From NCBI GenBank assembly GCA_947495125.1, contig CANLXL010000007.1:1-64000 (forward strand): DNA of 64,000 nt, read 5' to 3'. This stretch comes from an uncultured Flaviramulus sp. (GTDB lineage Bacteria; Bacteroidota; Bacteroidia; Flavobacteriales; Flavobacteriaceae). Under the pieces are notes generated by a model. The model had not been told where the DNA came from. It saw nothing but the letters and a program-made list of their open reading frames with translations, and ran no database searches. Below are positions 3,101-29,014 of this stretch, one piece after another (the stretch's first letter is position 1; every line of letters starts with the position of its first letter). Both the position numbers and the translations under genes were made by a program.

Positions 3101-3433
3101 TCTAACAGATGCTCCGCTAGGATGCCAGGTTAAGCGCTTTGGTTCGCCGCCATTTATAGATACAATATATACAGCGTTTGAACCCGAACGATTAGAATTA
3201 AAAGCAATCCATTTACCGTCGGGCGAAAAATGAGGATTTGCTTCCACAGCTGCGGTACTGGTAATACGTTTAGCTTCGGATGTGTTCAATGGAGTTACCC
3301 AAATATCACCACCATAAGTATAAGTAAGGTGTGTATCGCTAATGTTTGGTTGCCGAAGAAGTCTTGTGCCCTGAGCTAGGGATAAACTTGAAATGAAAAT
3401 AAGGATAAAACTTAGATTAATGGATTGTTTCAT
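161..3433 (-). CDS. Tricorn-type S41 protease with beta-propeller and PDZ domains
   Basis: Large exported peptidase (1090 aa), probably periplasmic, degrading peptides. Residues 1-20 are a signal peptide ending SLAQ. Many PD40/TolB-like propeller repeats (SPDGKWIAF, SPKGDKIAW, SPDSNWIAY) fill about 30-540, matching the paired propellers of Tricorn. About 545-590 is a very charged Lys/Asp/Glu linker. A helical Tricorn C1-like region with the GHSF histidine lies near 690-770, a PDZ domain follows (about 780-860), and the S41 core closes the protein. The core has ERFNGGG and LAGSGGD, where Ser976 is the predicted nucleophile. The His and Ser positions expected of the family are present, so it should be active. 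ATG start directly precedes the signal peptide. It stands alone as a single gene with a terminator behind it. Confidence 0.9.
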   Translation of the reverse strand: MKQSINLSFILIFISSLSLAQGTRLLRQPNISDTHLTYTYGGDIWVTPLNTSEAKRITSTAAVEANPHFSPDGKWIAFNSNRSGSNAVYIVSINGGEPKRLTWHPSGASVRGWTNNGKQIFYASSRETTPRPYNRLWTISKEGGAPKLLTSQWSYDGSFSPNGKQMIIDKMSRWDTEWRAYRGGQNTPLIILDLDSQNEELLPNQSTTDTQPIWLGDLIYFLSDRDLVTNIWSFNPKTKAIKQVTTFKGDDVKWLSGHEDTIVYERSGYLHLLDLKSNTSTQLEIQVVGDFPWAETKWETVTDASRSASLSPNGKRAIMEARGEIFTVPVEFGDSRNITQSSGVADRAPIWSPKGDKIAWFSDEDRKGYALVISSQDGMSKNKRISIGESKMAWNPSWSPDGKHIAFVDDDVRLRVVTLDNKSIKTIDTGGNNLERNSIKMEWSPDSNWIAYSKSGSNNFRQLYIWSANNNQTKAITDPFADSFSPTWDLNHKQLYFLASTDVALRSGWANTSSMTANPVYAAYVVNLDAKDDSPFKPKSDEEDIKEDDSDKKKKDKGETDDKKDDKKSDDKKKDASKKIKIDFEGLKRRTLALPMPAKNYSFIIAGPEGTAFIGERVPDSRGLTLQKFSLKDKEAKEFLTGASQVTITTNRKHMFARVNGSRKVISASGAKGKDGKTMKINLQMKLDRSAEWEQMFEEAWRYERDYFYDPNIHGRDWKVVYKRYAPLVPFVKHRADLSYILDQVNGELSVGHSFVFGGDYPDVEPSKIGLLGADIIVDSNHWKIKRIYTSESWNPNLTGPLDAPGLNIKPGHYIVAINGKKITTDHNIYEFLDGTVGKQTVLHINKEPQFDGSWNEVVKPIRSENSLRQRTWVEDNRRLVDRLSNGRLGYVWVPNTGGPGFVSFNRYYFAQQDKEGAVIDERFNGGGLLDDYMVDLMTRSLRAGLTNEVPNGKAMKLPAGILGPKVLLVNELAGSGGDFFPWVFRQQKAGKLIGMRTWGGLVKSSVHYSLIDGGALTAPDNAVFDPINNTWIAENKGVAPDIEVRQDAKALSQGRDPQLERAVQELMKTLGSKKVINYPKYSTPAKGNQ

Positions 3434-5907: not shown

Positions 5908-7446
5908 TTACCAGCCTTCGTTTTGTTGAATGGTTCCTTCACTTGTGCTTATTACTAAAGGGGGAATTGGCCAAACATGATTGGTGCTGGCATCAAAGTG
6001 TGGTCTTGCCGGCCATACTTCCTCTACTGTAAATGGTGAATTTGGATCTGTTTTATCCGAGTGTATTCTTCCATGCAATGCACTTGGAACGACAGAAGCG
6101 GCATCTCCCCATCTTACCAAATCTTCATAGCGACCAAATAATTCACCTGCAAACTCAGCTCTTCGTTCATATTTTAAATCTGCTATTGTAGCTCCGGATA
6201 AGGGATTTAAACCAGCACGTTCTCTTACCAAATTTAAAGACATATCTCCATTTTGTCCTTGCATGATCAATGCTTCTGCTTTCATTAATAAAACATGAGA
6301 ATACCTTAATAAAGGAAGATTAAGGTCGGTTGTAGGATGGTCTCCGTTGCCATTTAAATGTTGTGCATCTGGATAGCTATATGGCTCCATATATTTGTTA
6401 AACTGAAACCCTGTCCAATTTATGGTTGACCAATATTGTCTTGTTTCTCCGAAGTAAGTAAAGGTGTCTCCAAATTTTAGTATGGTAGCTTCTCTTCTGG
6501 TATCTCCTGAAGTGTACGACTCATATAATTCTAAGGTAGGCGCAAAATAACCCCAGCCATTATATTTTCCCCAGCCTTTGTTTTCAAGTGAAGCTCCCGG
6601 AAAAATACTGCCTCCATTTTTATTACTGGGTACAGACCATAAATACTCTTGTCCCCAGTTATTTGCAATAATGAATGCATCTTTAAAATTGGACTCTAAA
6701 GCATTTTTCCCAGAGTTAATAACGGCATCACAAGCTTCTACAACCTTAGCCCAAGAACTGGAATCGTATTGCGCATTGTGTAAATGAGTTCTGGCCAAAT
6801 AGCCGTAAGCCGCGTTTTTATGAGGTTTGCCATAATCATTTTGATTTATTTGATCAAAGTAAGGCAATAGCTCGGCAGCTTTGGTAAAACTAGCAGCAGC
6901 AAATGTATAACTTTCGCTCACATGGGCTGGTCTTTCAATAAAAAATGTTGTTGTGTTCTCATCTACAATCGGAATACCCGCCCTGCTATCACCATAAATT
7001 ACAGATAGTTGAAAATAGGCCAAACCCCTCATAAAATAAGCTTGCCCTAACGCAAAGTTCTTGAGATCCTGATTAATCTCCATCTCCGTAACGTTGTTGA
7101 TAATATCGTTAGCTCTTTTAACAACAATAAAATGTTTGGACCAAATATCTCTTGTGTACGAACCAGAGCCATCCGTGTAAAAGTTCTTGATATCTTCAAT
7201 TTGTCCTTTAGATTTACCAACAATAAAATCGTCACTGGGAATTAAAGAATACAAATGCATACCACGACCATAAGTGCCTTGGAAATCATTCATAATGTAT
7301 AGTCCGTTTGTTGCAGCCGTTACATCTGCTTCTGTCTTCCAAAAAGTTGCTAAAGTAGGAGCTCCTTCTGGTTGAAGTTCTAAAAAGTCTGAATCACATC
7401 CTGTTAAGATGAATAGCGTTAATGCTATACCGATAATATTTTTCAT
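5908..7446 (-). CDS. SusD/RagB-family outer-membrane nutrient-binding lipoprotein
   Basis: 512 residues. The signal peptide ends at a lipobox, LTGC, so Cys17 should be lipidated. After it comes the family start ELQPEGAPTLATFWKTEADV and the TPR-like helical core. The C-terminal region holds LPLLRYSHVLLMKAEAL and YERRAEFAGE, both hallmark SusD segments, and the protein ends HVWPIPPLVISTSEGTIQQN. It would sit on the lid of the SusC pore encoded 12 bases upstream and bind substrate at the cell surface. Length is normal for the family. No glycoside hydrolase, lyase or sulfatase lies nearby, so the ligand is not predictable. Confidence 0.95.
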   Translation of the reverse strand: MKNIIGIALTLFILTGCDSDFLELQPEGAPTLATFWKTEADVTAATNGLYIMNDFQGTYGRGMHLYSLIPSDDFIVGKSKGQIEDIKNFYTDGSGSYTRDIWSKHFIVVKRANDIINNVTEMEINQDLKNFALGQAYFMRGLAYFQLSVIYGDSRAGIPIVDENTTTFFIERPAHVSESYTFAAASFTKAAELLPYFDQINQNDYGKPHKNAAYGYLARTHLHNAQYDSSSWAKVVEACDAVINSGKNALESNFKDAFIIANNWGQEYLWSVPSNKNGGSIFPGASLENKGWGKYNGWGYFAPTLELYESYTSGDTRREATILKFGDTFTYFGETRQYWSTINWTGFQFNKYMEPYSYPDAQHLNGNGDHPTTDLNLPLLRYSHVLLMKAEALIMQGQNGDMSLNLVRERAGLNPLSGATIADLKYERRAEFAGELFGRYEDLVRWGDAASVVPSALHGRIHSDKTDPNSPFTVEEVWPARPHFDASTNHVWPIPPLVISTSEGTIQQNEGW

Positions 7447-7458
7447 GTCTTATTTTTT

Positions 7459-10400
7459 TTAAAATGATAAATTAACACCAAGAGTAAATACTCTACTTAC
7501 TGGGTATTGACCACCATCAATGCCTTTATTTGATACTTCAGGATCTAGTCCTGAATAGTTCGTTATTGTGAATAGATTCTGTGCAGATATGTAAGTTCTT
7601 AAACGGCTATAAAATTTCGATTCGGGAAATGTATAACCTATTGTAAAATTCTTTAATCTTAAATAATCTGTGCTTTCTAGCCAGAAATCTGAGGGTCTTA
7701 AATTGTTATTAGGGTCGTTGTTTGATAGTCTAAAGTTTGAAGCACTTGTATTCCCTGAGTGCCAAGTGTCTATCGCATCTGCAGATAAGTTTGCACCGGC
7801 AACAGAAGTTTGGGCAGGATATACCGTAGTGATCTTAAATCCGTTATAGGCTTTCGATCCGCTTACACCTTGAAAAAATAAGGAAAGGTCAAAATTTTTA
7901 TAGTTGAAATTAGCATTTAAGCCGTATGTGAAATCCGGGAATGCACTTCCTTTATAAACTTTATCATCCCCATTTATTTCTCCATCGCCATTTTGGTCTT
8001 TAAACTTTAAATCACCTGCGACAGCATTTGGGTGTGCCAAATCTTCAGTAGCTTCGGCATCCGATTGAAAAATACCGTCGGTTTCTAACAAGTAAAATGA
8101 AAAAAGCGGCTCTCCAACAACAGATTCTATTGGAAAATGTGTTGCCACTTGCGTAAAGTCTAAAATATTATTTATACCATTTCCTAAAGCGACTAATTCA
8201 TTATCAATTTTCGAAATGTTTCCGGAAATATTATAGGTGAAATCACCTTCATACTTTTGATAGGTTAAAGATAGCTCAATACCTTTATTACGAACTTGTC
8301 CGGCATTTACAAAAGGGGCGTTACCAACACCGGCTAGCGAACTAATTGGTAAAGGTAAAATGAGATCTTTAGTGTCTTTTATAAAATAATCGGCCGCTAG
8401 GGTCAATCTACTATCAAATAAAGAAAGGTCGGCTCCAAAATTCAATTGTTCGGTAGTTTCCCATACGATATCCGGATTTGAAATACCATCAAGCGCAAAT
8501 CCGCTCACAAAATTTGAAACTCCTAAAATTACTTGTGTTTCTGATAGTGGCACATTGGTTGGATAATTACTTAATGAAGAAATATTACCTATTCTACCCC
8601 AGCTTGTTCTTAATTTAAAATTGTTAATTGTTTTGCTATCATTTAAAAATTCTTCTTCAGATAATTTCCAAGCTAACGCCACGGAAGGGAAAGTTCCCCA
8701 TCGATTTTCTTTTGATAGCTTCGAAGTCCCATCTCGTCTAACACTAGCAGTTAATAAGTATTTATCATCGAAAGCATAATTAACTCTTGCGAAATATGAG
8801 GTTAACCTGTTTTCTTCTTTTAAACTAACAGGTTTATCAAAAAGTGTTGCGTTTACTAAAAACAATGAACTTGGGTCTTCACTTGGCAGATCTCTTCCAA
8901 TTATCGAGAATAACTCTCTCGAAAAGCTTTGTAATGTATAACCACCAAGTAACGTAACGTTATGAATGTCTTTAAATGTTTTATTATAGGTCACCGTATT
9001 TTCAAGAGACCAGTCTTCTTGGTTTATATCTGCAATTTGCAAACTATTCGTCGTTTTTTGAGTTTTTGAAACTTCCGGAACTCTAGGGTCAAATTCCTTA
9101 AATTTTTCTGTTTTTAAATTAATACCGAAGCTTGATTTAAGCTTCAACCCTTCTATTGGAGAATAATCGAAATATATATTACCAAACAAATCTGATTTGG
9201 GATTATCGATATCAATTCTTTTTAAGGTTGAAACAGGATGTATAGTTAGCCCATATCCGGCATTTGGCATATCAGAGTAGTTTCCGTTTTCATCATAAAC
9301 TGCCAGGTGAGGAGGCGCTTTAATGGCTTGAGCAATGATGCCGTTATAGTTAGTTTCTCCGTTAGAAGCTTGTGTTCCTGTAAAAGCACTATTCCCATTG
9401 GTACTGATGTAAGAAATGTTTTCCCCAATTTTAAGCTTATCACTAACTCTAAATTCCGATTTAAATCGAAGACTGAGTCTACTAGCTTCGGTATTAAGGA
9501 GCGTGCCTTCTCTTTTATTATAACCGATAGAAGATGAAAACACGTATTTTTCAGTACCTCCTCTCACACCAATGTCATAGTTTTGAATAATGCCAGTTTG
9601 GAAAATTTCATTTACCCAATTGGTTCGAGTAATTTGGCCATCAGGGTTCAATGTGGCATCATGAACGGGATCTCTTGATACACCTGAATTATCTGCTGCA
9701 ATGTTATAGTATTCGGCTTGCTGTGCAGCATTTAAAGCTTTAGGCTTATTCCAAACGCTTTGGGCACCGGTATAAGCGTTAAAATCAAATTTTAGTTCTC
9801 CGTTTTTACCTTTCTTTGTGGTCACTAAAACCACGCCACCAGCAGCTCTTACACCATAGATTGCTGTAGCTGAGGCATCTTTTAGTATAGACATCGTTTC
9901 TATATCAAAAGGATTTAAAGGACCACCGTAATAAGGAACACCATCCACAATCCATAATGGAGATTCATCCGAGGTGGTTCCAACACCTCTAATTCTGACT
10001 TTTGGAATACTGGTTGGGTCACCACCATCACTAATTACAGTAACACCGGGAACATTTCCTTGAAGCGCTTCTTCTGTGTTGGTAACCGATCTGTCATTAA
10101 TGTTTTTAACACTCGTAATTGCGCCAGTTAGATCTTTTTTAGCAACAGAACCATATCCAACGAGTACAACTTCATCTAATTCTGAAGCATCAGCCAATAA
10201 AACTATAGCGATGTCTACATCATCATCATCATCATCATCATCATCATTTATGGTGACTTCTTGAGAGGTAAACCCAATGTATGAAATAACAAGTGTTACA
10301 TTATTATCTTCAATCTGTAAGGTAAATTTACCATCAAAATCTGTTGTAGTGCCGGAAGACGTTCCTTTTATAATAATCGTTGCTCCCGGTAAAGGCTGCC

Positions 10401-10836
10401 CTTGTTCGTCATTTACAGTGCCCTTTATTTCTCGTTTTTGAGAATCTGTCACGTTAGTTTTCGAAGCTACATTTTTTTTGGTTAATACAATTTGTTTTTC
10501 ATTTATTGTATAATTAAAAGATGCGGCCGTCGAAAGCTTCTTTAATACGTCGTCTAAATTTTTATTGTTAACAGTAATACTGATCTTTTTAGAATCATCA
10601 ATTTCATTTATGTTATAAAAGAATTTATAACCAGATTGCAATTTTATGTCCTTTAAAACGGTTTTTAATTTTGCATTGCTGTGATTAAGATTAATTTCAT
10701 TTTGAGAAAAAATCGGGTTTGCCGAGAGTTGGCAAATCATTAGAAGCATTAAAATAAAACTTAATTTCATTTTTAAGTTATTGATTTTCCAATACGATTC
10801 CTTCTTAAAACTACAGGAGTTCGAAGTTTTTTTCAT
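7459..10836 (-). CDS. SusC/RagA-family TonB-dependent receptor with N-terminal STN domain
   Basis: Outer-membrane import channel of about 1125 residues. A signal peptide near 25-45 is followed by an STN domain (about 47-107, contact site for the FecR anti-sigma), a carboxypeptidase-regulatory-like domain (about 136-212), the TonB-box-like LDEVVLVGYGSV (about 220) and the plug with ALQGNVPGV and the family motif IRGVG. The barrel ends with VFTLGVNLSF. The STN domain makes it a transducer-type receptor, matching the FecR gene directly upstream and the ECF sigma gene divergent from it. I chose the ATG at 10836 (MKKTSNSCSF); an earlier in-frame ATG lies at 10881. Odd feature: nine consecutive Asp (about 188-196) in the regulatory domain, encoded by a GAT repeat. 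Confidence 0.95.
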   Translation of the reverse strand: MKKTSNSCSFKKESYWKINNLKMKLSFILMLLMICQLSANPIFSQNEINLNHSNAKLKTVLKDIKLQSGYKFFYNINEIDDSKKISITVNNKNLDDVLKKLSTAASFNYTINEKQIVLTKKNVASKTNVTDSQKREIKGTVNDEQGQPLPGATIIIKGTSSGTTTDFDGKFTLQIEDNNVTLVISYIGFTSQEVTINDDDDDDDDDVDIAIVLLADASELDEVVLVGYGSVAKKDLTGAITSVKNINDRSVTNTEEALQGNVPGVTVISDGGDPTSIPKVRIRGVGTTSDESPLWIVDGVPYYGGPLNPFDIETMSILKDASATAIYGVRAAGGVVLVTTKKGKNGELKFDFNAYTGAQSVWNKPKALNAAQQAEYYNIAADNSGVSRDPVHDATLNPDGQITRTNWVNEIFQTGIIQNYDIGVRGGTEKYVFSSSIGYNKREGTLLNTEASRLSLRFKSEFRVSDKLKIGENISYISTNGNSAFTGTQASNGETNYNGIIAQAIKAPPHLAVYDENGNYSDMPNAGYGLTIHPVSTLKRIDIDNPKSDLFGNIYFDYSPIEGLKLKSSFGINLKTEKFKEFDPRVPEVSKTQKTTNSLQIADINQEDWSLENTVTYNKTFKDIHNVTLLGGYTLQSFSRELFSIIGRDLPSEDPSSLFLVNATLFDKPVSLKEENRLTSYFARVNYAFDDKYLLTASVRRDGTSKLSKENRWGTFPSVALAWKLSEEEFLNDSKTINNFKLRTSWGRIGNISSLSNYPTNVPLSETQVILGVSNFVSGFALDGISNPDIVWETTEQLNFGADLSLFDSRLTLAADYFIKDTKDLILPLPISSLAGVGNAPFVNAGQVRNKGIELSLTYQKYEGDFTYNISGNISKIDNELVALGNGINNILDFTQVATHFPIESVVGEPLFSFYLLETDGIFQSDAEATEDLAHPNAVAGDLKFKDQNGDGEINGDDKVYKGSAFPDFTYGLNANFNYKNFDLSLFFQGVSGSKAYNGFKITTVYPAQTSVAGANLSADAIDTWHSGNTSASNFRLSNNDPNNNLRPSDFWLESTDYLRLKNFTIGYTFPESKFYSRLRTYISAQNLFTITNYSGLDPEVSNKGIDGGQYPVSRVFTLGVNLSF
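10218..10247. repeat. (CAT)10 trinucleotide microsatellite inside susC
   Basis: Ten uninterrupted CAT units on the plus strand, read as GAT on the coding strand, encode the Asp9 run of the SusC regulatory domain. Unit gain or loss stays in frame, so the loop could lengthen or shorten without knocking out the gene. Confidence 0.9.
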
Positions 10837-10916
10837 AATTTTGACTGTGTTTTGGTCGTTAATAAATATGTTAGTGATCAATATAAAGAGGGGAGACGCT
10901 GTAACGTTTCCCTTTT

Positions 10917-12065
10917 TTATTCTGTAATTATTATGGTATTCTCATTGATATTAAAATTAAATGGTGTGCTTAAGGCTATAGTTTCTAGTATGGTTTCTAT
11001 GCTTTCCTCTTCAAATTCTCCGCTGTAAATGGTGTTATTTAAAATAGGTGCTTTGTTAATTATTATAACATCGTGCTTACGCTCCAGTTTTTTAAGAATG
11101 TCGTTAAATTTTAAATTATTTATAACAAGTTTGTTTTCCATCCAGCTGGTATAGATTCTAGTATCCACTTTTGTTTTTGCAAATTCACTGTTTAATCTAT
11201 TAAAAAGCGCTTGATAATTTGGAGATAATTGCAGCTTATCTTCAGGAGAGTCATCCTGAAAAACATTTACGGCACCTTCTACTAATGTAGTCGTAATATT
11301 TGCTTCATCTTCATAGGCCGACACGTTAAACTGAGTCCCTAAAACTTCAATGTTTACACCTTTAGAATCTACAATGAATGGCTTGTTTTTATTAGTTGTT
11401 ACATCAAAGTAGGCTTCTCCTTTTAAGTGAACGGTTCTGTTTTTGGATTGCGCCTGAAAATTTTGTGGAAATTTAAACTCTGTTCCAGCATTTAGCCATA
11501 CTATGGTGCCATCAGAAAGTTCTAATTTGAACGTTTTTCCATTAGGGACGAGTATTTCGTTATAGGCTAGCTCTTTATTTTCTGAATGATTATTAAAACT
11601 TAATCCATTATCGTTTTTGCTTGCGATTATAGTGTTATTTGAATCTTTAAGTTCATCATCATTAATTGTAATTGATTTTTTAGTGCCATCTGCTAATTTT
11701 ATAATAATGTCATTGGTTTTAATGTTTGTTTCTGTATTAGCGATTTTAGTTGAGGTTTCACCACCATTATTCGGTAATATTAAATAACCAATACATAGCG
11801 CAATAACTAATATGGCTGCATATTTATAATATGCAGGTAATTTAAAGGTACTGTCTTTTTCTTTGGTAATTGAGGTCATGAACCTTTTGTATGCATCATC
11901 CGCATTAAAAGTTTCAATCGTTTCACTTTCACATGCTTTTAGTGTTTCTGTGAATATATCCTGATGCTTATCATCACTTATAACCCATTCGTGTAATATG
12001 CCTCTTTCTTCTTCTGAAATATTACGGTCAACAAGTTTTTTTATGAGATCGTTATACGCTATCAT
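10917..12065 (-). CDS. FecR-family anti-sigma/sigma-regulator
   Basis: Inner-membrane regulator of 382 residues. The cytoplasmic N-terminus (about 1-78) should bind the ECF sigma factor. One membrane segment, YAAILVIALCIGYLIL, lies near 80-98. A periplasmic FecR domain follows, with VPNGKTFKLELSDGTIVWLN and GEAYFDV, and a C-terminal DUF4974-type domain (NLKFNDILKKLERKHDV) would meet the STN domain of SusC. It begins the minus-strand unit FecR-SusC-SusD-MFS, 80 bases before the SusC start. Unlike the usual order, its sigma partner is not upstream in the same operon but divergent, 117 bases away. Confidence 0.93.
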   Translation of the reverse strand: MIAYNDLIKKLVDRNISEEERGILHEWVISDDKHQDIFTETLKACESETIETFNADDAYKRFMTSITKEKDSTFKLPAYYKYAAILVIALCIGYLILPNNGGETSTKIANTETNIKTNDIIIKLADGTKKSITINDDELKDSNNTIIASKNDNGLSFNNHSENKELAYNEILVPNGKTFKLELSDGTIVWLNAGTEFKFPQNFQAQSKNRTVHLKGEAYFDVTTNKNKPFIVDSKGVNIEVLGTQFNVSAYEDEANITTTLVEGAVNVFQDDSPEDKLQLSPNYQALFNRLNSEFAKTKVDTRIYTSWMENKLVINNLKFNDILKKLERKHDVIIINKAPILNNTIYSGEFEEESIETILETIALSTPFNFNINENTIIITE

Positions 12066-20344: not shown

Positions 20345-20372
20345 AGCTTCATAGAAATATGAGGCTTTTTTT
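20345..20372 (+). terminator. Terminator of tRNA-Gly
   Basis: Eight-pair stem AGCTTCAT / ATGAGGCT (one G-T pair) with a six-base loop and a run of seven T. It starts six bases after the tRNA and its T-run just touches the convergent pepE stop codon. Confidence 0.75.
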
Positions 20373-21078
20373 AGTTTAGAATATTGAGCTCCGTCTCCGG
20401 TTCAACTTCGTACGGCGTTTTGTTGTATTCAAAAATACGTGCTGTTAAGTTACCTTTTAAAATTATAGAATTGTTCTTCACAGATAGCCAACTTCCTTCT
20501 CTTAAACCGATTACAGGAGGGCTGTTAAAGTTATGGAATTCTTTTATTCTAGTTTCTCTTGTTTCCCCCATATGTGTACTGTTTAAATCTGGGTCCAAAT
20601 AATGAGGGTTAATATTAAAAGGAACCAACCCTAAAGCGTTAAAACTTGGAGGATAAATAATGGGCATATCATTAGATGTTTTTATGCTGAGGCCGCAAAT
20701 ATTACTTCCAGCACTGGTGCCTAAATAGGGTGTACCATGGTTAACCGTTTCTCTTAAAATATCAATTAAGTTATTTTTATACAATTGATTGACTAAAACA
20801 AAAGTATTACCGCCACCCGTGAAAATAGCCTCAGCATTTTTTATGGCAGTCGTGGGATTTTCAAACGTATGCAGTCCTCTTACTTTTTTATTTATTTTGG
20901 AAAAGGCGATTTCGACCGTTTTAGTATAATCATCATAAGATATGCCTCCGGGTCTTGCATAAGGAATAAATAGAATCTCATTTGCATCTTTAAAAAAAAT
21001 CAATAAATCGTCTAAAATATATTCTAAATAACCACTACCATGCAATGTCGAGGTACTCGCAATAATTATGTTTTTCAT
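20371..21078 (-). CDS. pepE: Peptidase E (alpha-aspartyl dipeptidase, S51)
   Basis: Cytosolic serine peptidase that cleaves Asp-X dipeptides. 235 residues, as in E. coli. The nucleophile elbow is GTSAGSNI, the oxyanion and structural motif GGGNTFVLV precedes it, and NPHYLDPDLNSTHMGETRETR carries the conserved His and Arg region. ATG at 21078 immediately precedes the first strand KNIIIAST. The divergent gene at 21188 leaves 109 bases for both promoters. Confidence 0.93.
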   Translation of the reverse strand: MKNIIIASTSTLHGSGYLEYILDDLLIFFKDANEILFIPYARPGGISYDDYTKTVEIAFSKINKKVRGLHTFENPTTAIKNAEAIFTGGGNTFVLVNQLYKNNLIDILRETVNHGTPYLGTSAGSNICGLSIKTSNDMPIIYPPSFNALGLVPFNINPHYLDPDLNSTHMGETRETRIKEFHNFNSPPVIGLREGSWLSVKNNSIILKGNLTARIFEYNKTPYEVEPETELNILN

Positions 21079-21187: not shown

Positions 21188-21985
21188 ATGAAAAAAATAA
21201 TCCTATTCGTATCCGTTTTAATGAGTTTAACCATGTTTTCACAAGATGTTAAGCGTGTCACAGTTAGGGGACAGATTGTTGTTGAAAGTAGTGATATTGG
21301 TGGTATTACCGTCTTTAATATATCTTCAAATTCAGGAACAATCACAAACATGAAAGGAGAGTTTGATTTGCAAGTTGGATTGAACGATTTAATTGAAGTA
21401 AGCGCTTTACAATATAAAAATATCAGATTTGAAATTAACGAGGATATAATTTCTTCAAAATCGATAAGAGTTTTTTTAATTGAAGAAATTAATAAACTTG
21501 AAGAGGTTGTGGTTTTTTCAGGAGGTTTAACAGGTAATTTGAATACCGATATAGGCGAAAAAAAACGTTTTAAACCAAAATTGGATGTATTGTATTTTGG
21601 GATAAAGAATAGGGAGGAGTATGAATTTAGAAACGATAATAAAATTAAGGTAGAAAATTTAGCTGTAAATAGTAGACACTTTCCAATGGTGCATGGTCTT
21701 AATGTAGTTAATGTTGTGGATCAATTATTACTTCCTTTGTTTAGGTCTAAAATTAATAATGATAATGTGAAAGGAGCGTCAAAAGTTCCTGTAGAATCTA
21801 TAAAATATTATTTCGGATCTGAATTTTTAGTTAATAATTTTGATATTCCGAAACACCGGGTTGAGGAGTTTATTCGATACGTTGAAGCCGATGATTTTGA
21901 TTTTAACCTTCTTAATTATGGTAATGAAATGGATTTTCTAGAAACGATTTATACAAAAAGCCTTAAATTTTTGGACGACAAATAA
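21188..21985 (+). CDS. Secreted carboxypeptidase-regulatory-like protein with TonB-box-like strand, paralogue 1
   Basis: 265 residues. Signal peptide to about residue 19 (LTMFSQ). A carboxypeptidase-regulatory-like beta-sandwich (about 24-98) includes GGITVFNISSNSGTITNMKG and EVSALQYKN. Then INKLEEVVVFSGGLTGNL (from about 101), which resembles the linker and TonB box that follow this domain in SusC receptors. No barrel follows; the last 130 residues are charged and probably helical. First of three tandem paralogues (21188, 22074, 22873). Function unknown; periplasmic location is inferred from the signal peptide. Confidence 0.8.
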   Translation: MKKIILFVSVLMSLTMFSQDVKRVTVRGQIVVESSDIGGITVFNISSNSGTITNMKGEFDLQVGLNDLIEVSALQYKNIRFEINEDIISSKSIRVFLIEEINKLEEVVVFSGGLTGNLNTDIGEKKRFKPKLDVLYFGIKNREEYEFRNDNKIKVENLAVNSRHFPMVHGLNVVNVVDQLLLPLFRSKINNDNVKGASKVPVESIKYYFGSEFLVNNFDIPKHRVEEFIRYVEADDFDFNLLNYGNEMDFLETIYTKSLKFLDDK

Positions 21986-22073
21986 GTGCCAACTTTAACT
22001 AAAGTTTAAAGCTTTTTTTATTTTATTTAAGATTTGAACTCCGTTCTTTATATTCTAAAAATAGCCGATCGTT

Positions 22074-22886
22074 TTGAGATTTTTCGTTTTTTATATCTTT
22101 TTTGGATTGTCCTTTGGAACAATGTTCAGTCAAACGATTGCAAGGATTGAAGTAAAAGGATATATACTGACTGATGAGAGCGATGTCGAAGGGATCACAA
22201 TATTCAATTCATCATCAAAGATAGGAACTATTAGTAATGAAAAAGGCGAATTCTCAATAGCGATAGCCTTGAACGATGTCGTTGAGATTTCTGCGTTACA
22301 ATTCGAACCGGTTTCAATTAAGATTACAGACGAAATTATTAAACTGAAAATATTAAAAGTATATTTAACAGAACAACTTTATAAACTAGAAGCCATTGTA
22401 ATTTCTGCCGGACTTTCTGGGAATATCTTATTGGATATCGACCATACTGAAAAGCGCCCGACGATAAATTTAAGCTATGGAGATTTGAGAAATTATGAGA
22501 CTCATGATAGAATAGCAAGGGATGAGCAAGTCGGAAACTACGAGTTGAATAAAATAATAAATAAAGGCAGACTGTATAATGGAATAGATTTTGTTCAAAT
22601 TTTGAACCCTGTTTTTAAACTGCTAGTTAAGTCTAAAAAAAAGAAGGATAATTCGGGTGAGACTCTAAGGTTTCAAGAATCGACCAAATTAGATGACGTT
22701 TATACCCACAATTTTATCAGTAAAACCTTTTCAATTCCATTAGAAAAAGTTTCAGATTTTATTAGGTTTATAGAGGAAGCCGGGATGGATCAAGATTTAT
22801 TAAGCAAGGAGAAAGAGGTTGAACGTTTGGAATTCTTGTTTGCTAAAAGCGCGTTATTTATGATTAGTCGTTATGCTAAGGATTAA
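22074..22886 (+). CDS. Secreted carboxypeptidase-regulatory-like protein with TonB-box-like strand, paralogue 2
   Basis: 270 residues with the same plan as its neighbours: signal peptide (IFFGLSFGTMFSQ), regulatory-like domain with EGITIFNSSSKIGTISNEKG and EISALQFEP, then LYKLEAIVISAGLSGNILLD near 102-121 and a charged C-terminal region. The start is TTG at 22074: a stop at 22062-22064 closes the frame upstream and the next Met (residue 17) would remove the signal peptide. It is closest to paralogue 1 and its last codons overlap the start of paralogue 3 by 14 bases, implying translational coupling. Confidence 0.8.
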   Translation: MRFFVFYIFFGLSFGTMFSQTIARIEVKGYILTDESDVEGITIFNSSSKIGTISNEKGEFSIAIALNDVVEISALQFEPVSIKITDEIIKLKILKVYLTEQLYKLEAIVISAGLSGNILLDIDHTEKRPTINLSYGDLRNYETHDRIARDEQVGNYELNKIINKGRLYNGIDFVQILNPVFKLLVKSKKKKDNSGETLRFQESTKLDDVYTHNFISKTFSIPLEKVSDFIRFIEEAGMDQDLLSKEKEVERLEFLFAKSALFMISRYAKD

Positions 22887-23673
22887 TTATATATCTATTT
22901 TATTGCTTTTGCTATTAGGGCAGGCCGCAAACTCACAATCTGTTGAAATTCAAGGTAAGGTTCAAAGTAAATCGAATGTTGAAAACATACATGTTATGAA
23001 CAAGACAGGTCGGGTATATACAACCACCAATAGTAAAGGGGAATTTAAAATTAATGCAAAAATAAATGATACTTTAGTTTTTTCATCTATTCAGCACATA
23101 CCGAAACATATTTTTGTGAGTGAAAATATGATTTTGGACAGAAGGGTTACCGTTGAATTGAATGAGCTGATCAACGAATTGGAGGAAGTTGTCGTTGGTA
23201 AAATTCTATCAGGAGATTTACTTTCAGACATTAATAATACAGAAGGGGACCCCCCAATTAACTTTTATGATGTTGGAATTCCCGGATACAAAGGCAAAAA
23301 AGCCACACAAAGCGAACGACGACTCCATGAGGCAGGCGTATTTAAACCTGAAATGTTATTGGGTCTTTTAGGTGGAGGTGTGCCTTTGAACCCAATTTTG
23401 AATGGTATATCGGGAAGAACAAAAGAACTGAAAGAACGGGTTAAGCTTGAGGCAAATACCGAGTTAATTCGAAAGATTAAGTCCAATTTATCTGAGGATT
23501 TTTTTAGTAATTATGAATTAGAAGACAAACTAAGAATGGACTTTTTCTATTTCTGCGAAGAATCTCCTGATTTTGAAGAACGTTGTCATGGAAAAGGCGA
23601 CATTGAAATCTTGACGTTTTTGAAAGAAAAACTGGTAGCTTATAAAAACAATCTTTATTCAAATAAAGATTAA
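22873..23673 (+). CDS. Secreted carboxypeptidase-regulatory-like protein with TonB-box-like strand, paralogue 3
   Basis: 266 residues: signal peptide (LLLLLGQAANSQ), regulatory-like domain with ENIHVMNKTGRVYTTTNSKG and LVFSSIQHIP, then ELEEVVVGKILSGDLLSDIN at about 102-121. The C-terminal part differs from the other two, with a Gly-rich segment MLLGLLGGGVPLNPILNG and three Cys-containing positions near the end. The most diverged of the trio. It overlaps paralogue 2 by 14 bases. Function unknown. Confidence 0.8.
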   Translation: MLRINYISILLLLLLGQAANSQSVEIQGKVQSKSNVENIHVMNKTGRVYTTTNSKGEFKINAKINDTLVFSSIQHIPKHIFVSENMILDRRVTVELNELINELEEVVVGKILSGDLLSDINNTEGDPPINFYDVGIPGYKGKKATQSERRLHEAGVFKPEMLLGLLGGGVPLNPILNGISGRTKELKERVKLEANTELIRKIKSNLSEDFFSNYELEDKLRMDFFYFCEESPDFEERCHGKGDIEILTFLKEKLVAYKNNLYSNKD

Positions 23674-23707
23674 CTTTTCTTTGGAATACTTTTTGAAACA
23701 TATATAA

Positions 23708-23715
23708 TACTTTTG
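23708..23715 (+). promoter_or_regulatory. Candidate -7 box upstream of the DUF6702 gene
   Basis: TACTTTTG matches TAnnTTTG. A TTG at 23681 is 24 bases upstream, longer than the usual 19-21, so the match is only partial. If used, the DUF6702 gene is transcribed apart from the three paralogues. Confidence 0.3.
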
Positions 23716-23786: not shown

Positions 23787-24290
23787 ATGAAATCAGTTAA
23801 GCTACTCATCGTATTGTTTATTTTACCACTTTGTGCTTTTACAACAATGCATAAATATTACATAAGCGTAACTCAGGTTAATTACATTGAAGATGCCCAA
23901 GCTATACAAATTACATCGAGAATTTTTATTGATGATTTCGAGAATTTACTTAGAGAACGGTATGACGAAAATATAACTCTGGCAGGCGAAGATGAATTGA
24001 AGACGACTGATTTATATATCGAAAAATATTTAACCGAAAAACTTGAAATAAAGATTAACGGTAAACCCACCGAACTTAATTTTATAGGTAAAGAATACGA
24101 TGTAGATATTATGAAGTGTTATCTTGAAATTTTAGGCATTGGTAGCATTGAGTCTATAGAAATTAAAAACAAAGTGCTGTTTGATTTATTCGATGACCAA
24201 CAGAACATTGTAAAAACTAAAATCAACTCCAAACAAAAGAGCTTTATATTAATCTCTCAGAATGATAAAGCTGTGTTAAATTTTAACTAA
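23787..24290 (+). CDS. DUF6702-family exported protein
   Basis: 167 residues. A signal peptide (LLIVLFILPLCAFTT) is followed directly by MHKYYISVTQVNYIEDAQAI, the characteristic start of DUF6702 proteins, which are found next to M1 peptidase genes in Flavobacteriia. The rest is beta-rich, with QITSRIFIDDFENLLRERY and MKCYLEILGI. No catalytic residues are apparent; periplasmic. It lies between the three regulatory-like paralogues and the two M1 peptidases, 110 bases before the first. Confidence 0.85.
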   Translation: MKSVKLLIVLFILPLCAFTTMHKYYISVTQVNYIEDAQAIQITSRIFIDDFENLLRERYDENITLAGEDELKTTDLYIEKYLTEKLEIKINGKPTELNFIGKEYDVDIMKCYLEILGIGSIESIEIKNKVLFDLFDDQQNIVKTKINSKQKSFILISQNDKAVLNFN

Positions 24291-24400: not shown

Positions 24401-26662
24401 ATGAAAAAAAGCATTTATTTTTTACTCACTGCGGTATTTATATCCGTCAATGTATTGGCACAGAGTACCGAAAAACAAAGAGCAGGAGGGCATACAGATC
24501 AAAATAAGTTTAGACAAATGAAGGACCTTTTGGCAACCCCAAATGAGTCAAGGACAGCTTCAGGCGCACCTGGATATCAGTATACGCAACAAAAAGTGGA
24601 TTATGTTATGGACATCCGTTTGGATGAATCTAAGAATCAAATTCATGGACATGAGGCCATAACTTATCATAATAATTCTAAAGATCATTTAGAGTATTTG
24701 TGGTTACAATTAGATCAAAATATGCGAGCCGCCGACTCCAAAACTCCGGATATCAATTCCGAAAGTTTTAATGACGCCTTTAATGGTCCTGTGACCTTTA
24801 CAAAGTCTAATTTAAAAAAGAGGTTCGACGGCGGGTTTAATATAGAATCAGTACAAAATGAAGATGGCTCAGATTTATCACATATGATTAATCAAACCAT
24901 GATGCGAATTAATCTTGAAAGACCATTAGCGCCGGGGGAAACTTTTAAATTTCAAATTAAATGGTGGTATAATGTAAACAACCATATTGTTGAAGGCGGA
25001 CGTTCAGGATATGAATATTTTCCGAAAGATGGAAATAGCACTTATGTTATAGCGCAGTTTTTTCCAAGACTTTGTGTTTATGATAATGTTGAGGGTTGGC
25101 AGAATATGCAATTTTGGGGGCGTAGCGAATTTGCATTGGAGTTTGGAGATTATGATGTGAAGTTAACGGTACCTGCCGATCATAAATTGGAAGCAACAGG
25201 GGTTTTACAAAACGCAAAAGAAGTGTTGACCAAAGAACAGCGTAAGCGTTTTGAAACTGCTAGGAAATCGTTTAAAGACCCTGTTTTTATTGTAACTCAG
25301 GAAGAAGCTGAAAAAGCTGAAACTAAAAGAAGTAAAAAAACGAAAACATGGCATTTTAAAGCCAATAGGGTGAGAGATTTTGCTTTTGCAACCTCACGTA
25401 AATTTATTTGGGATGCTATGGCTGTAGATATAAACGGAAGATCGGTTATGGCTATTTCGCTTTACTCTAAAGAAGGGAACCCGCTATGGGAGGAGCACTC
25501 TACCAGAGTTGTGGCCAATACCTTAGAAGAATACTCTAAACTCACTTTTGATTATCCCTATAACAAAGCGGTTTCCGTTCACGCCCAAATGGGTATGGAA
25601 TACCCTATGATTTGTTTTAACTATGGTAGACCAAACCCTGATGGGACCTATTCTGCAAGACTTAAAAGAGGAATGATTGGGGTAATCACTCATGAAGTTG
25701 GGCATAACTTTTTCCCCATGATTGTTAATAGCGATGAGCGACAATGGACCTGGATGGACGAAGGGTTAAACTCCTTTGTTGAAACTTTGGCCGAGCTGGA
25801 TTACGACCCCGATTTTTTTACAGGAAATCTACCTAAAGATATTGTTCATTATATGGGAGGTGATCAGGACTTTATTTCACCTATAATGTCTCAAGGCGAT
25901 TACGTATACCAGTTTGGTCCTAATGCCTATACAAAACCGGCTGCTGCCCTATACTTATTAAGGCAAACTATTATGGGACCAGAACTGTTTGATTATGCAT
26001 TTAGAACCTACTCTAAACGATGGATGTTTAAGCATCCAACCCCGGCAGACTTTTTTAGAACTATGGAAGATGCTTCGGCAATGGACTTAGATTGGTTTTG
26101 GAGAGGATGGTTCTACACGACCGATTATACCGATATTGGAGTTAAAGATGTTAAATCTTACTACCTAACAGATAAGCCCACCGAAAAGGCTAAAACACTG
26201 GCAGAAAAAAATAACATGAATCTTGATGATTATAAAGATAAACTGGTTTATTTCGCGGAAATGGAACAAGGTACCGAGGCTAAAGACGCTAAGAAAGCAT
26301 CAGATTTTAACTTTTTGAATAATTATTTAGAAGGTTTGCCTGAAGAAGAAAAAGCACGGCTTAAACAAGCTCCCAATTATATTTACGAAGTCACCTTCGA
26401 AAAACCAGGAGGTTTGGTAATGCCTATTATACTGGAACTTACCTATGAAGATGGGACAAAAGAAAGAAAAAAATACCCGGCACAGATTTGGAGATATAAC
26501 GACGCCGAAGTGAAAAAAGTTTTTAGATCCGACAAAGCGATAACAGGTTTTGTGATCGATCCGGATTTAGAAACTGCAGATGTCGATACGTCCAACAATT
26601 CATGGCCAAGAGAAGTAAAAGATAGTGAGTTTGACCAATTTAAAAATAAAGTAAAAGGTTAA
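24401..26662 (+). CDS. M1-family (gluzincin) metallopeptidase, paralogue A
   Basis: Exported zinc aminopeptidase-like enzyme of 753 residues. The signal peptide ends NVLAQ. An M1-type N-terminal beta domain (about 60-300; YVMDIRLDESKNQIHGHEAI) precedes the catalytic domain, which has the substrate-binding GMEYPMICFNYG in the GAMEN position, HEVGHNFFPM as zinc site and the third ligand Glu in WTWMDEGLNSF. The C-terminal domain ends FDQFKNKVKG. All catalytic positions are intact. It is followed after 45 bases by paralogue B, with which it shares the same layout. Confidence 0.93.
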   Translation: MKKSIYFLLTAVFISVNVLAQSTEKQRAGGHTDQNKFRQMKDLLATPNESRTASGAPGYQYTQQKVDYVMDIRLDESKNQIHGHEAITYHNNSKDHLEYLWLQLDQNMRAADSKTPDINSESFNDAFNGPVTFTKSNLKKRFDGGFNIESVQNEDGSDLSHMINQTMMRINLERPLAPGETFKFQIKWWYNVNNHIVEGGRSGYEYFPKDGNSTYVIAQFFPRLCVYDNVEGWQNMQFWGRSEFALEFGDYDVKLTVPADHKLEATGVLQNAKEVLTKEQRKRFETARKSFKDPVFIVTQEEAEKAETKRSKKTKTWHFKANRVRDFAFATSRKFIWDAMAVDINGRSVMAISLYSKEGNPLWEEHSTRVVANTLEEYSKLTFDYPYNKAVSVHAQMGMEYPMICFNYGRPNPDGTYSARLKRGMIGVITHEVGHNFFPMIVNSDERQWTWMDEGLNSFVETLAELDYDPDFFTGNLPKDIVHYMGGDQDFISPIMSQGDYVYQFGPNAYTKPAAALYLLRQTIMGPELFDYAFRTYSKRWMFKHPTPADFFRTMEDASAMDLDWFWRGWFYTTDYTDIGVKDVKSYYLTDKPTEKAKTLAEKNNMNLDDYKDKLVYFAEMEQGTEAKDAKKASDFNFLNNYLEGLPEEEKARLKQAPNYIYEVTFEKPGGLVMPIILELTYEDGTKERKKYPAQIWRYNDAEVKKVFRSDKAITGFVIDPDLETADVDTSNNSWPREVKDSEFDQFKNKVKG

Positions 26663-26707: not shown

Positions 26708-29014
26708 ATGAAAAAAATCACCTATTACCTACTTTCCATAGCATTTGTTTCAGCAAGTGTTTTTGCTCAGGAACAGGAAAAATCTGAACCTAAAACGGGG
26801 CATCTAAACAATAATAAGTTTAAACAATTGTATGATGAGTTTGCAACGCCTAATATGTATAGAGCGGCATCTGGTGCTCCGGGAGTCGCCTATTACCAGC
26901 AGCAGGCAGACTACAAGATGGATATTGTTTTAGACGATAAGAATACAAAATTATCAGGTTTTGAAACGATAACCTATACGAATAATTCTCCCGATGTATT
27001 AAAATATCTTTGGGTGCAATTGGAACAAAACAAAAGAGCTAAGGACTCTAAATCGCCGTTAATTGAAGGTAGTGGTGTTGCTCCGGTGATGCGACCCGGA
27101 CAGTTTATTAATGAATATACCAAAGAACCTTTTGATGGTGGGTTTAATATCCTTGAAGTGAAAGACACAAATGGTAAACCGTTACCACATATGATCAATC
27201 GAACGATGATGCGTATTGAGTTACCTAAACCTTTAAAAACAGGTGAAAAATTCTCGTTCTCGATTAAGTGGTGGTATAATATAAATAATCATCTTGTAGT
27301 AGATGGTCGTTCCGGATATGAACATTTTGAAAAAGATGGAAATAATGCCTATGTAATAGCTCAGTTTTATCCAAGAATGGCAGTATACAATGATGTAGAA
27401 GGATGGCAAAATTCCCAATTCTGGGGGCGTGATGAATTTGCGCTGCCATTTGGAGATTTTGAAGTAAATATTACGGTTCCTGCAGATCATATTTTAGATG
27501 GAACAGGGAAGCTTACCAATAGAAAAGAGGTTTTCTCTAAAACGATGATGCAGCGCTATGAGAAAGCTAAAAAATCCTATAACGAACCGGTTCTTATCGT
27601 AACTCAAGAAGAAGCTGAGGCTGCAGAAAAAGGATTTTCAGACAAAACAAAAACCTGGAAACTACACGCCAAAAATGTTCGTGATTTTGGATTTGCGACC
27701 TCAAGAAAATTTATTTGGGATATGATGGCCGTTAAAATCGGTGGAAAGGATGTCATGGCAGTATCGCTATACCCGAAAGAAGGTAACCCGCTTTGGGAGG
27801 AATGGTCTACAAAGGCTGTTGCCAGCACATTAGAATCGTATTCCAGAATGACATTCGATTACCCTTACCATAAAGCAATTTCTGTGCATGCTAAACAACA
27901 AGGTATGGAATACCCAATGATTTGTTGGAATTTTGGTCGTCCAAAAGAAGATGGTACGTATAGTGATCGTACAAAATATGGGATGATGGGGGTTATTATT
28001 CACGAAGTAGGACATAACTTCTTTCCAATGATCGTGAATAGTGATGAGCGTCAATGGACTTGGATGGATGAAGGTTTAAATACCTTTGTGCAGTATGTTG
28101 CAGAACAGGATTTTGGTGAAAAATACCCTGAGGCATTATCGCCAAACGATAAACACTTTCCCTCAGATCGAGGTCCTGCACGTATGATTGTGCCTTATAT
28201 GGGAGGAAATCAAGATTATATTGCACCTATAATGACCAAAGGATTGAATACCTATCAGTTTGGAAATAATGCCTATGGCAAACCGGCAACGGCACTAAAT
28301 ATATTAAGAGAAACTGTCATGGGGCGCGAATTATTCGACTATGCATTTAGAGAGTACGCACAACGTTGGATGTTTAAACACCCGACACCGGAAGATTTTT
28401 TCAGAACCATGGAAGACGCTTCAGCATTTGATTTGGATTGGTATTGGAGAGGTTGGTTCTATACTACGGATTGGGTTGATATAGGGCTTAAAGAAGTGAA
28501 AAAGTACTATGTAACCTCGGAGCCAAACCAGTTTATTAAAGACATGGCCAAAGAAAGAGGCGCAAGTTTGAAAGATTTACCGCCGTTGGTATATATGGTT
28601 GAAGAAGGTAGTGAAGACTATAAGGAAGAAATGAGATCCAATAAGGTTATAGAAGATACAAAACCACTTAAGGAATATGTGATGGATAATTTCAGTCCTG
28701 AAGAACGTAAAAATATTAAGGCACCTAAGTATTTCTATAATATTACTTTTGAGAAGCCAGGAGGTTTGGTTATGCCCATTATCGTTGAGTTTACTTATGC
28801 TGATGGTACCAAAAAGAGAGAAACATATCCAGCGCAAATTTGGAGGTTTAATGATAAAGAAGTGAGTAAAGCCATCGCTTCAGATAAAGAGATTGTTAAT
28901 ATTGTGGTCGACCCTGATTTGGAAACCGCAGATGTTGATACATCAAATAACGCTTGGCCTAAAGAGGTTAAACAAAGTGAGTTTGACCAATTTAAACAAA
29001 AGGTGAAAGGATAA
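26708..29014 (+). CDS. M1-family (gluzincin) metallopeptidase, paralogue B
   Basis: 768 residues, sharing long blocks with paralogue A, for example DADVDTSNN near the end, WRGWFYTTD and the same ending FDQFK-KVKG. Signal peptide ends SVFAQ. GMEYPMICWNFG, HEVGHNFFPM and WMDEGLNTF make up the active site, so it also should be catalytic. It has an extra 12-15 residues near the catalytic helix (KYPEALSPNDKHFPSDRG) relative to A. The pair arose by tandem duplication; the terminator at 29032 closes the unit. Confidence 0.93.
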   Translation: MKKITYYLLSIAFVSASVFAQEQEKSEPKTGHLNNNKFKQLYDEFATPNMYRAASGAPGVAYYQQQADYKMDIVLDDKNTKLSGFETITYTNNSPDVLKYLWVQLEQNKRAKDSKSPLIEGSGVAPVMRPGQFINEYTKEPFDGGFNILEVKDTNGKPLPHMINRTMMRIELPKPLKTGEKFSFSIKWWYNINNHLVVDGRSGYEHFEKDGNNAYVIAQFYPRMAVYNDVEGWQNSQFWGRDEFALPFGDFEVNITVPADHILDGTGKLTNRKEVFSKTMMQRYEKAKKSYNEPVLIVTQEEAEAAEKGFSDKTKTWKLHAKNVRDFGFATSRKFIWDMMAVKIGGKDVMAVSLYPKEGNPLWEEWSTKAVASTLESYSRMTFDYPYHKAISVHAKQQGMEYPMICWNFGRPKEDGTYSDRTKYGMMGVIIHEVGHNFFPMIVNSDERQWTWMDEGLNTFVQYVAEQDFGEKYPEALSPNDKHFPSDRGPARMIVPYMGGNQDYIAPIMTKGLNTYQFGNNAYGKPATALNILRETVMGRELFDYAFREYAQRWMFKHPTPEDFFRTMEDASAFDLDWYWRGWFYTTDWVDIGLKEVKKYYVTSEPNQFIKDMAKERGASLKDLPPLVYMVEEGSEDYKEEMRSNKVIEDTKPLKEYVMDNFSPEERKNIKAPKYFYNITFEKPGGLVMPIIVEFTYADGTKKRETYPAQIWRFNDKEVSKAIASDKEIVNIVVDPDLETADVDTSNNAWPKEVKQSEFDQFKQKVKG

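Follow-up and report, generated by a model that had tools for sequence, protein, structure and literature searches.

Three tandem homologues of the BAM subunit BamP at the bamP locus of an uncultured Flaviramulus species

We describe here three consecutive genes, whose products are named P1, P2 and P3, found in a stretch of 64,000 nucleotides from an uncultured Flaviramulus sp. of the Flavobacteriaceae (GenBank assembly GCA_947495125.1, contig CANLXL010000007.1, positions 1 to 64,000; hereafter the window). Judged by sequence comparison, P1, P2 and P3 are homologues of BamP, P3 being the least secure of the three. It is quite likely, in our estimation, that the bamP locus is here occupied by an array of BamP homologues and that P1, P2 and P3 all act as BamP does, as soluble accessory subunits of the BAM complex in the periplasm. 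An initial annotation of the same DNA had described three TonB-box-like modules built as the N-terminal part of SusC, and knew of no function assigned to them. The family does have one: BamP, which the three proteins match outside their SusC-like part too and at a syntenic place, is described as a BAM subunit (PMC12611786).

An article published in Nature in 2025 (PMC12611786) reports that the BAM complex of Flavobacterium johnsoniae includes BamP as a subunit located in the periplasm (PDB 9n2d chain E). In the available part of that article, five proteins are named as coming with BamA, namely BamD, BamG, BamH, BamM and BamP, and TonB is not among them. In the solved structure, the N-terminal domain of BamP sits on POTRA 4-5 of BamA, its three-helix C-terminal domain bridges POTRA 1 and BamD, and its linker runs through the BamA barrel, with a loop at the lateral seam. 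F. johnsoniae possesses four BamP homologues, all of which are inferred in the same text to act at the same BamA site, and BamP4 was pulled down with BAM. Loss of all four leads to darobactin sensitivity (according to one figure legend, in cells whose outer membrane had been permeabilised), and strains devoid of BamP homologues are reported to grow without defect on rich medium.

Results

Organization of the three genes

The open-frame listing of the window contains three intact ORFs, exactly at the coordinates that the initial annotation had given (Table 1). The P2 and P3 frames overlap by 14 bases, and P1 is 35% identical to P2 and 21% identical to P3. A hydrophobic stretch opens each protein, in agreement with the proposed signal peptide (judged by eye), and no cysteine was found in the first 30 residues of P1, P2 or P3, which therefore carry no lipobox. 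P1-P3 share these traits of periplasmic non-lipoproteins with BamP-type proteins and look, as had been suggested, like free periplasmic proteins.

The predicted carboxypeptidase-regulatory-like domain was recovered as PF13715 at residues 26-109 of P1 (37.2 bits), 27-110 of P2 (31.6 bits) and 26-108 of P3 (32.8 bits), P1 and P3 scoring above the cut-off of 32.2 bits and P2 just below it. The frames stop at 265-270 aa, without the plug or β-barrel whose absence had been noted, and the SusC/RagA family TIGR04056 is matched at its profile positions 2-84 of 981 only. The N-terminal plan is thus as first described, but the description stopped short of some 150 more residues beyond the LEEVVV segment, made up of a linker followed by a helical domain at the C-terminus.

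Table 1 Features of the P1-P3 array and its neighbours in the window
Feature	Coordinates	Strand	Basis
Conserved left neighbour, upstream and divergent: peptidase S51 gene (PepE-like)	20371..21078	-	PF03575, 194 bits
P1, 265 aa, homologue of BamP (BamP-type linker)	21188..21985	+	ORF; PF13715; NF053692; AlphaFold plan; C-terminal part vs BamP 98.4%
P1 N-terminal transthyretin-like domain, residues 22-102	21251..21493	+	PF13715; model; 9n2d_E Z 12.4 over 81 residues
P1 LEEVVV segment, residues 104-109	21497..21514	+	Motif scan; model pLDDT <50
P1 GGLTGNLNTDI, linker start	21521..21553	+	Conservation in relatives; sequence reading
P1 conserved linker block GLNVVNVVDQLLLPLFRS	21695..21748	+	Conservation; aligned with BamP GTDFVRIFKDV by profile comparison
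P1 C-terminal helical domain, approximately residues 200-263	21785..21976	+	Modelled helices 211-218, 222-234, 239-242, 247-263
P2, 270 aa from a TTG start, homologue of BamP (BamP-type linker)	22074..22886	+	ORF; NF053692, 98 bits; 9n2d_E top solved sequence match
P2 LEAIVI segment, residues 105-110	22386..22403	+	Motif scan
P2 linker block NGIDFVQILNPVFKLLVKSKKKK	22578..22646	+	phmmer alignment with BamP YGTDFVRIFKDVKKLLSKNNEKE
P2 C-terminal domain, approximately residues 204-263	22683..22862	+	By alignment with P1 and BamP only
P3, BamP homologue with second linker type, 266 aa	22873..23673	+	ORF; NF053692, 79 bits in two stretches; profiles; AlphaFold plan
P3 LEEVVV segment, residues 103-108	23179..23196	+	Motif scan; unstructured in model
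P3 linker block VGIPGYKGKKATQSERRLHEA	23272..23334	+	Kept across 95 rows
P3 linker block PLNPILNGISGRTKELKERVKLE	23383..23451	+	Kept across 95 rows; counterpart in second family
P3 C-terminal helical domain, approximately residues 196-261	23458..23655	+	Modelled helices 182-213, 218-229, 234-238, 243-263
DUF6702 gene, conserved right neighbour	23787..24290	+	PF20420, 173 bits
Two M1-type peptidase genes, conserved right neighbours	24401-26662, 26708-29014	+	First: PF01433; second: likeness only

Homology to BamP

The NCBIfam BamP family NF053692 is the top family for all three proteins, with 72 bits for P1 (residues 2-261), 98 bits for P2 (residues 4-262) and 79 bits for P3. None of them passes the cut-off of 230 bits that serves as the BamP equivalog criterion, and no other gene of the genome does so either. 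Ranked by BamP score, the genome's top five, at 66-98 bits, are P1-P3 and a pair of genes on another contig (C2, 392090-393755); the sixth is a frame of 1089 aa with 39 bits. Strict orthology to F. johnsoniae BamP was considered and rejected, as the genome is devoid of genes above the cut-off and a strict BamP is present in one of 249 genomes of the family (E 1e-25).

Searched by sequence against the PDB, P2 retrieves F. johnsoniae BamP first (9n2d chain E, E 0.0011, query residues 18-261); P1 retrieves it at E 0.23, through residues 3-111 only and ranked behind SusC homologues. Because the N-terminal domain also occurs in SusC proteins, profiles were compared. Over the whole length, and against the eight BamPs above the cut-off, the P1/P2 type reaches 99.7% (E 1.5e-26, 247 columns) and the P3 type 98.9% (E 1.9e-17, 231 columns). 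After removal of the N-terminal domain, the values against BamP are 98.4% for P1 (127 columns), 97.8% for P2 (121 columns) and 89.7% for P3 (63 columns, in the C-terminal domain only), as compared to 10.1% at most among 60 column-shuffled controls. These N-domain-less matches indicate that P1-P3 are homologues of BamP beyond the common domain, P3 least securely.

Taken together, F. johnsoniae BamP (Fjoh_1771; PDB 9n2d/9n2e chain E) resembles P1-P3 in its signal peptide, CarboxypepD_reg-like N-terminal domain, long linker, helical C-terminal domain and locus, whereas the window proteins score below the family cut-off and are found in three copies in the window, with two more elsewhere in the genome. 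The linker block of F. johnsoniae BamP is common to P1 and P2; P3 has another type of linker.

The bamP locus

The neighbourhood of the array was compared in the best 80 of 88 loci, which were retrieved with P3 orthologues and are referred to as the named loci, array genes being counted as ORFs of 200-340 aa. Among these 80, the array adjoins the PepE gene in 79 and the DUF6702 gene in 79, and an M1 relative is present in 78; the exceptional loci, L150 and L170, are located at contig ends. Arrays of one, two, three and four genes were found at 5, 42, 28 and 5 of these best 80 of 88 loci, respectively. When one genome was taken from each of 60 genera of the same family, P3 found a match in 57 and P1 in 56 (E 1e-10), some of these through the N-terminal domain only.

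A gene above the BamP cut-off is present in 8 of 13 Flavobacterium genomes, and the BamP of one Flavobacterium genome shares 76% identity with its F. johnsoniae counterpart. An array lies next to PepE in 12 of the 13, together with DUF6702 and M1 genes in 11 of those 12, and in all eight genomes with an over-cut-off BamP this BamP is the array gene most distant from PepE. Since BamP is flanked in Flavobacterium by PepE on one side and by DUF6702/M1 genes on the other, and the array of the window has these very neighbours, it occupies the bamP locus.

The promoter consensus TAnnTTTG, with TTG in the -35 zone, has its sole exact match upstream of the DUF6702 gene (23708); the exact-pattern search found none upstream of P1, and no conclusion is drawn from it.

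Predicted structure

AlphaFold2 models were obtained for P1 from 74 sequences and for P3 from 95 sequences, with mean pLDDT of 66 and 83 and pTM of 0.35 and 0.40, respectively. In both, a β-sandwich (approximately residues 24-97) is followed by a linker, predicted with low to intermediate confidence, and by a C-terminal domain composed of three main helices and a short one. The plan of BamP, an N-terminal domain followed by a long linker and a three-helix C-terminal domain, is therefore seen in both models, each with one extra short helix.

Foldseek returned 9n2d_E as the top solved match for P1 (E 9.6e-7) and P3 (E 4.6e-7). The structural aligner (VIA) covers the N-terminal domain only, with Z 12.4 and an rmsd of 1.9 over 81 residues for P1, and Z 13.1 and an rmsd of 2.5 over 82 residues for P3. 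The NTE domain of SusC (9hfj) comes second among the solved structures and ties with BamP (Z 12.0 for P1 and 12.3 for P3), which bears out the SusC-like N-terminal plan of the initial annotation. The predicted fold is hence consistent with BamP, without being specific to it. The SusC/RagA TonB-dependent receptors (9hfj, 6ytc; TIGR04056) have in common with P1-P3 the fold of the N-terminal domain and an LxEVVV motif at its end; unlike these receptors, the window proteins have neither plug nor barrel, continue with another sequence after the segment and possess an additional C-terminal domain.

The LEEVVV segment

The segment occurs as KLEEVVV, KLEAIVI and ELEEVVV, followed downstream in all three proteins by L[ST]G....DI. 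In a six-frame translation of all 64 kb, the motif [KE]LE[EA][VI]V[VI] is found three times, precisely in P1-P3; given that it was composed from these very proteins, this count shows merely that the motif is uncommon in 64 kb. The segment is kept in orthologues, a looser form (L-x-[EA]-[VILA]-[VILATFSE]-[VILT]) being present in 72 of 95 P3-type and 58 of 74 P1/P2-type rows, and the downstream signature L..G....D being retained by 93 of 95 P3-type rows and by 70 of 74 rows of the P1/P2 type. It had been proposed to form a strand, but no strand appears there in the models of P1 or P3: the segment is modelled as unstructured, with pLDDT below 50 at residues 102-110 of P1 and averaging 57 at residues 101-110 of P3, and no other fold is seen.

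A motif of the form L.[DEA][VI][VIT][VIL] was present at 8 of 12 other N-domain loci inspected in the same genome (the 12 include the BamP-like pair on contig C2), 7 of the 8 being in frames of 777-2188 aa. Several of those SusC frames continue with a VGYG-type sequence, which P1, P2 and P3 lack. The motif is common among SusC frames, but in the window the segment continues with a linker of the BamP-like or the second type; its likeness to the SusC motif is therefore ascribed to the shared N-terminal domain, and the reading of the segment as a TonB box was set aside.

Two types of linker

The P1 block GLNVVNVVDQLLLPLFRS and the P2 block NGIDFVQILNPVFKLLVKSKKKK align with YGTDFVRIFKDVKKLL of BamP (profile comparison, phmmer). 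The linker of P3 is devoid of a BamP-like block and contains VGIPGYKGKKATQSERRLHEA and PLNPILNGISGRTKELKERVKLE instead. Among P3-type proteins (95 rows), the mean majority fraction is higher in the linker (0.69) than in the N-terminal (0.63) and C-terminal (0.59) domains. The reverse holds for P1-type proteins (57 rows), with 0.57 in the linker as compared to 0.67 and 0.69 in the N- and C-terminal domains, GLNVVNVVDQLLLPLFRS being an exception (0.71 over residues 167-188, 57 rows). The alignments comprised, from the named loci, 94 of 96 genes of the P3 type (A5), all 56 P1-type and 16 of 41 P2-type genes (A6; best 80 of 88 loci), and 25 of 29 (A2) and 19 of 29 (A3) other loci from the P3 and P1 searches in 60 genera.

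Since linker patterns left 45 of 193 array genes unassigned in the best 80 of 88 loci, the Flavobacterium arrays were classified with profiles instead. Of their 35 genes, 24 score closer to the P3 linker/C-domain profile, which contains no Flavobacterium sequence, and 11 to the BamP type, whose profile was built partly from the eight over-cut-off BamPs, so that the scores of those eight hold by construction. Both linker types were found in 11 of 12 Flavobacterium arrays; the 13th genome has a single related frame, scored by neither linker profile. The named loci were found with P3, and the P3 type is present there by construction. The second-type genes of Flavobacterium share with P3 their array placement and their proximity to the P3 profile, and are probably among BamP2-BamP4. 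The gene order differs, Flavobacterium arrays having the second type first and BamP last, while the P3-type gene is the last one in the window.

Trees were calculated from 16 of the 80 named loci (best 80 of 88), five of the eight over-cut-off BamPs and three of six sequences from a second family described below. With whole sequences, P1, P2 and BamP are split from P3, the Flavobacterium array genes and the second family (97/97). With the linkers removed, the P1, P2 and P3 types group together (95/93), apart from Flavobacterium BamP and the Flavobacterium array genes; long branches leave both trees unsure. As the grouping changes once the linkers are removed, the split rests on the linker, and we claim no old duplication. 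An old split into two gene classes was rejected in view of the joint grouping of the P1, P2 and P3 types in the linker-free tree. The linker types nevertheless recur; their history may be one of an old split with homogenised domains or of loop exchange.

Several observations were counted against a BamP-type reading of the array: scores below the cut-off, the tied fold of the SusC NTE domain, the weak PDB match of P1, a P3 linker unlike that of BamP together with the weakest C-terminal match of the three, and the linker-free tree, which places the P1-P3 types apart from Flavobacterium BamP.

Relatives in a second family

Of 296 genomes sampled across the phylum, 37 match the P3-type profile (E 1e-14): 30 belong to the same family (this genome included), six to a second family within the order and one to another family. 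The second family is, as a guess, Weeksellaceae. A profile made from its own sequences matches 58 of 60 of its genomes (E 1e-15), and tandem sets of 2-4 genes occur at 6 of 12 further loci; no relative of PepE, DUF6702 or M1 was found beside the second-family genes at the 12 + 6 loci read. Compared without the N-terminal domain, 28 second-family sequences give 98.7% with P3 (E 4.5e-16, 142 columns), 97.0% with P1 and 93.1% with P2, against 4.6% at most in 60 shuffled comparisons, and a counterpart of PLNPILNGISGRTKELKERVKLE is present. The match to BamP itself is weaker, with 0.4% when six sequences are used and 60.4% when 28 are used. The available part of the BamP article reports detectable BamP homologues in Flavobacteriaceae only (PMC12611786).

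Discussion

The comparisons reported here suggest that P1-P3 are probably removable plugs of BAM, rather than partners of TonB. The presumed target is encoded in the same genome (contig C8, locus L217:3818-6535): among 49 distinct solved sequences, this BamA is best matched by that of F. johnsoniae (9n2d_A), end to end (residues 67-905) and with 1132 bits. By analogy with F. johnsoniae BamP we infer that the N-terminal domain of each protein would bind POTRA 4-5 of BamA, and that the three-helix C-terminal domain would bridge POTRA 1 and BamD. The linker, starting from LEEVVV, would enter the BamA barrel from below and exit via the lateral seam, LEEVVV serving as a hinge into the barrel instead of a TonB box. 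The linker would block the seam until displaced for insertion, and the seam would be shielded from inhibitors. For P1 and P2, support for this mechanism comes from a homology that extends into part of the linker. For P3, it comes from domain homology, array membership and a linker that is strongly conserved although of another type; given that difference, the docking of P3 into BamA is the least certain element.

A possible extension, which we put forward only tentatively, is that the bamP locus encodes two interchangeable BamA plugs, one with a BamP-type loop (P1/P2) and the other with the P3 loop (GIPGY..TQSERRL.EA and ISGRTK.LK), that loops have been exchanged between paralogues, and that cells choose among plugs to set the state, the clients or the inhibitor resistance of one BamA. 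The second loop type would be the wider of the two, as its relatives are found in nearly every sampled genome of the second family.

A less probable explanation is that P1 and P2 act on BamA while P3 and the other proteins with a second-type linker plug another Omp85 protein such as TamL. The genome does contain three Omp85 matches, BamA, TamL (NF052279, 782 bits for a cut-off of 400) and a frame of 574 aa, the P3 linker is different yet strongly conserved, and the C-terminal part of P3 is the least BamP-like. However, P3 belongs to the same array, follows the same domain plan and has a C-terminal domain still related to that of BamP, second-type genes are also found in Flavobacterium arrays, and the four F. 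johnsoniae homologues are inferred to act at one BamA site in the available text (PMC12611786); this explanation is therefore unlikely.

It is highly improbable that P1-P3 work as free modules with a TonB box, either occupying TonB or serving the receptors that depend on it, notwithstanding the resemblance of their segment to the SusC LDEVVV motif and the structural tie with the SusC NTE domain. The homology to BamP continues behind the segment, the VGYG-type continuation is missing, the genes occupy the bamP locus, and TonB is absent from the five proteins named with purified BamA in the available part of the article (PMC12611786). No sign of TonB, of delivery to receptors or of cell-wall peptides was found for P1-P3 in this analysis, and the TonB reading is not supported. 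That P1-P3 would be generic transthyretin-like binders of peptides or sugars without a role in BAM is just as improbable, since the N-terminal fold is indeed widespread, unrelated chains reaching Z 7-10, but the part devoid of this domain matches BamP far above shuffled controls and the locus is that of bamP.

The function of the array is thus largely explained by the 2025 discovery of BamP, and as far as the evidence goes its products are not TonB modules: barrel-less SusC-like modules related to a BAM subunit are the answer to the question that the initial annotation had raised. BamP-type arrays recur at one locus across the sampled genera of Flavobacteriaceae, and if the proteins of the second family count as relatives, the published range of BamP is too narrow. 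The second loop type, more conserved in P3 orthologues than the folded domains that carry it, offers a concrete and unexplored target. Together, the family-wide arrays and the second-family relatives make the proposed link between BamP and darobactin insensitivity testable more widely.

BamP-type genes across genomes

In a second family of the order, relatives of the BamP type were found in 58 of 60 genomes (loci read: L209-L214, L229-L240), and the paper describing BamP of the Flavobacterium johnsoniae BAM complex (PMC12611786) gives no BamP homologues for this family. Among 12 of the loci read, 6 carry tandem sets of two to four genes each, and these sit outside the PepE/DUF6702/M1 locus. 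Gene order within the arrays runs in opposite directions in different groups: in Flavobacterium (L218, L241-L252), 11 of 12 arrays have the genes with the second linker type first and BamP last, whereas in the window the BamP-type genes (P1 and P2) precede the second-type gene (P3).

The window's own genome encodes a further BamP-like gene pair, one gene of which contains the BamP-type block GGIDFIKIAGLIGKLFKSKK. The neighbour of this pair is a DEAD-box helicase gene whose product has a DbpA domain, and one relative adjoins the same helicase in the Flavobacterium genome G111. TamL and a third Omp85 frame (568-574 aa), to which no NCBIfam model gives a name, are also encoded in the window's own genome.

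Outside the order, a genome of another family holds a single BamP-like gene without companion (L215), next to a frame that by eye resembles a transposase, and a 5.9-kb contig labelled Chlorobiota (L170) carries a BamP-like gene with the usual neighbours. These occurrences may reflect mis-binning or transfer.

Surroundings of the array

The SusC, FecR-like and SusD-like genes form an ordinary TonB-dependent system within the same window. Upstream of the DUF6702 gene, TTG followed by TACTTTTG resembles the Bacteroidota promoter consensus; through this candidate promoter, the DUF6702 and M1 peptidase genes might be transcribed separately from the array.

Coordinates of the features discussed
Feature	Location	Remarks
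Tricorn-like protease	window 161-3433	1090 aa; propeller repeats, PDZ_Tricorn, Tricorn_C1 and peptidase S41 domains
SusD-like gene	window 5908-7446	adjoins SusC receptor region
SusC receptor	window 7459-12065	STN and CarboxypepD_reg domains; FecR-like gene adjoining
Candidate promoter	window 23679-23715	
Second BamP-like pair	G000:C2:392090-393755 (L216:6064-7756)	own genome
Relative beside the same helicase	L219:6914-7687	G111
TamL and third Omp85 frame	L254:40-2571 and L255:1450-3156	own genome
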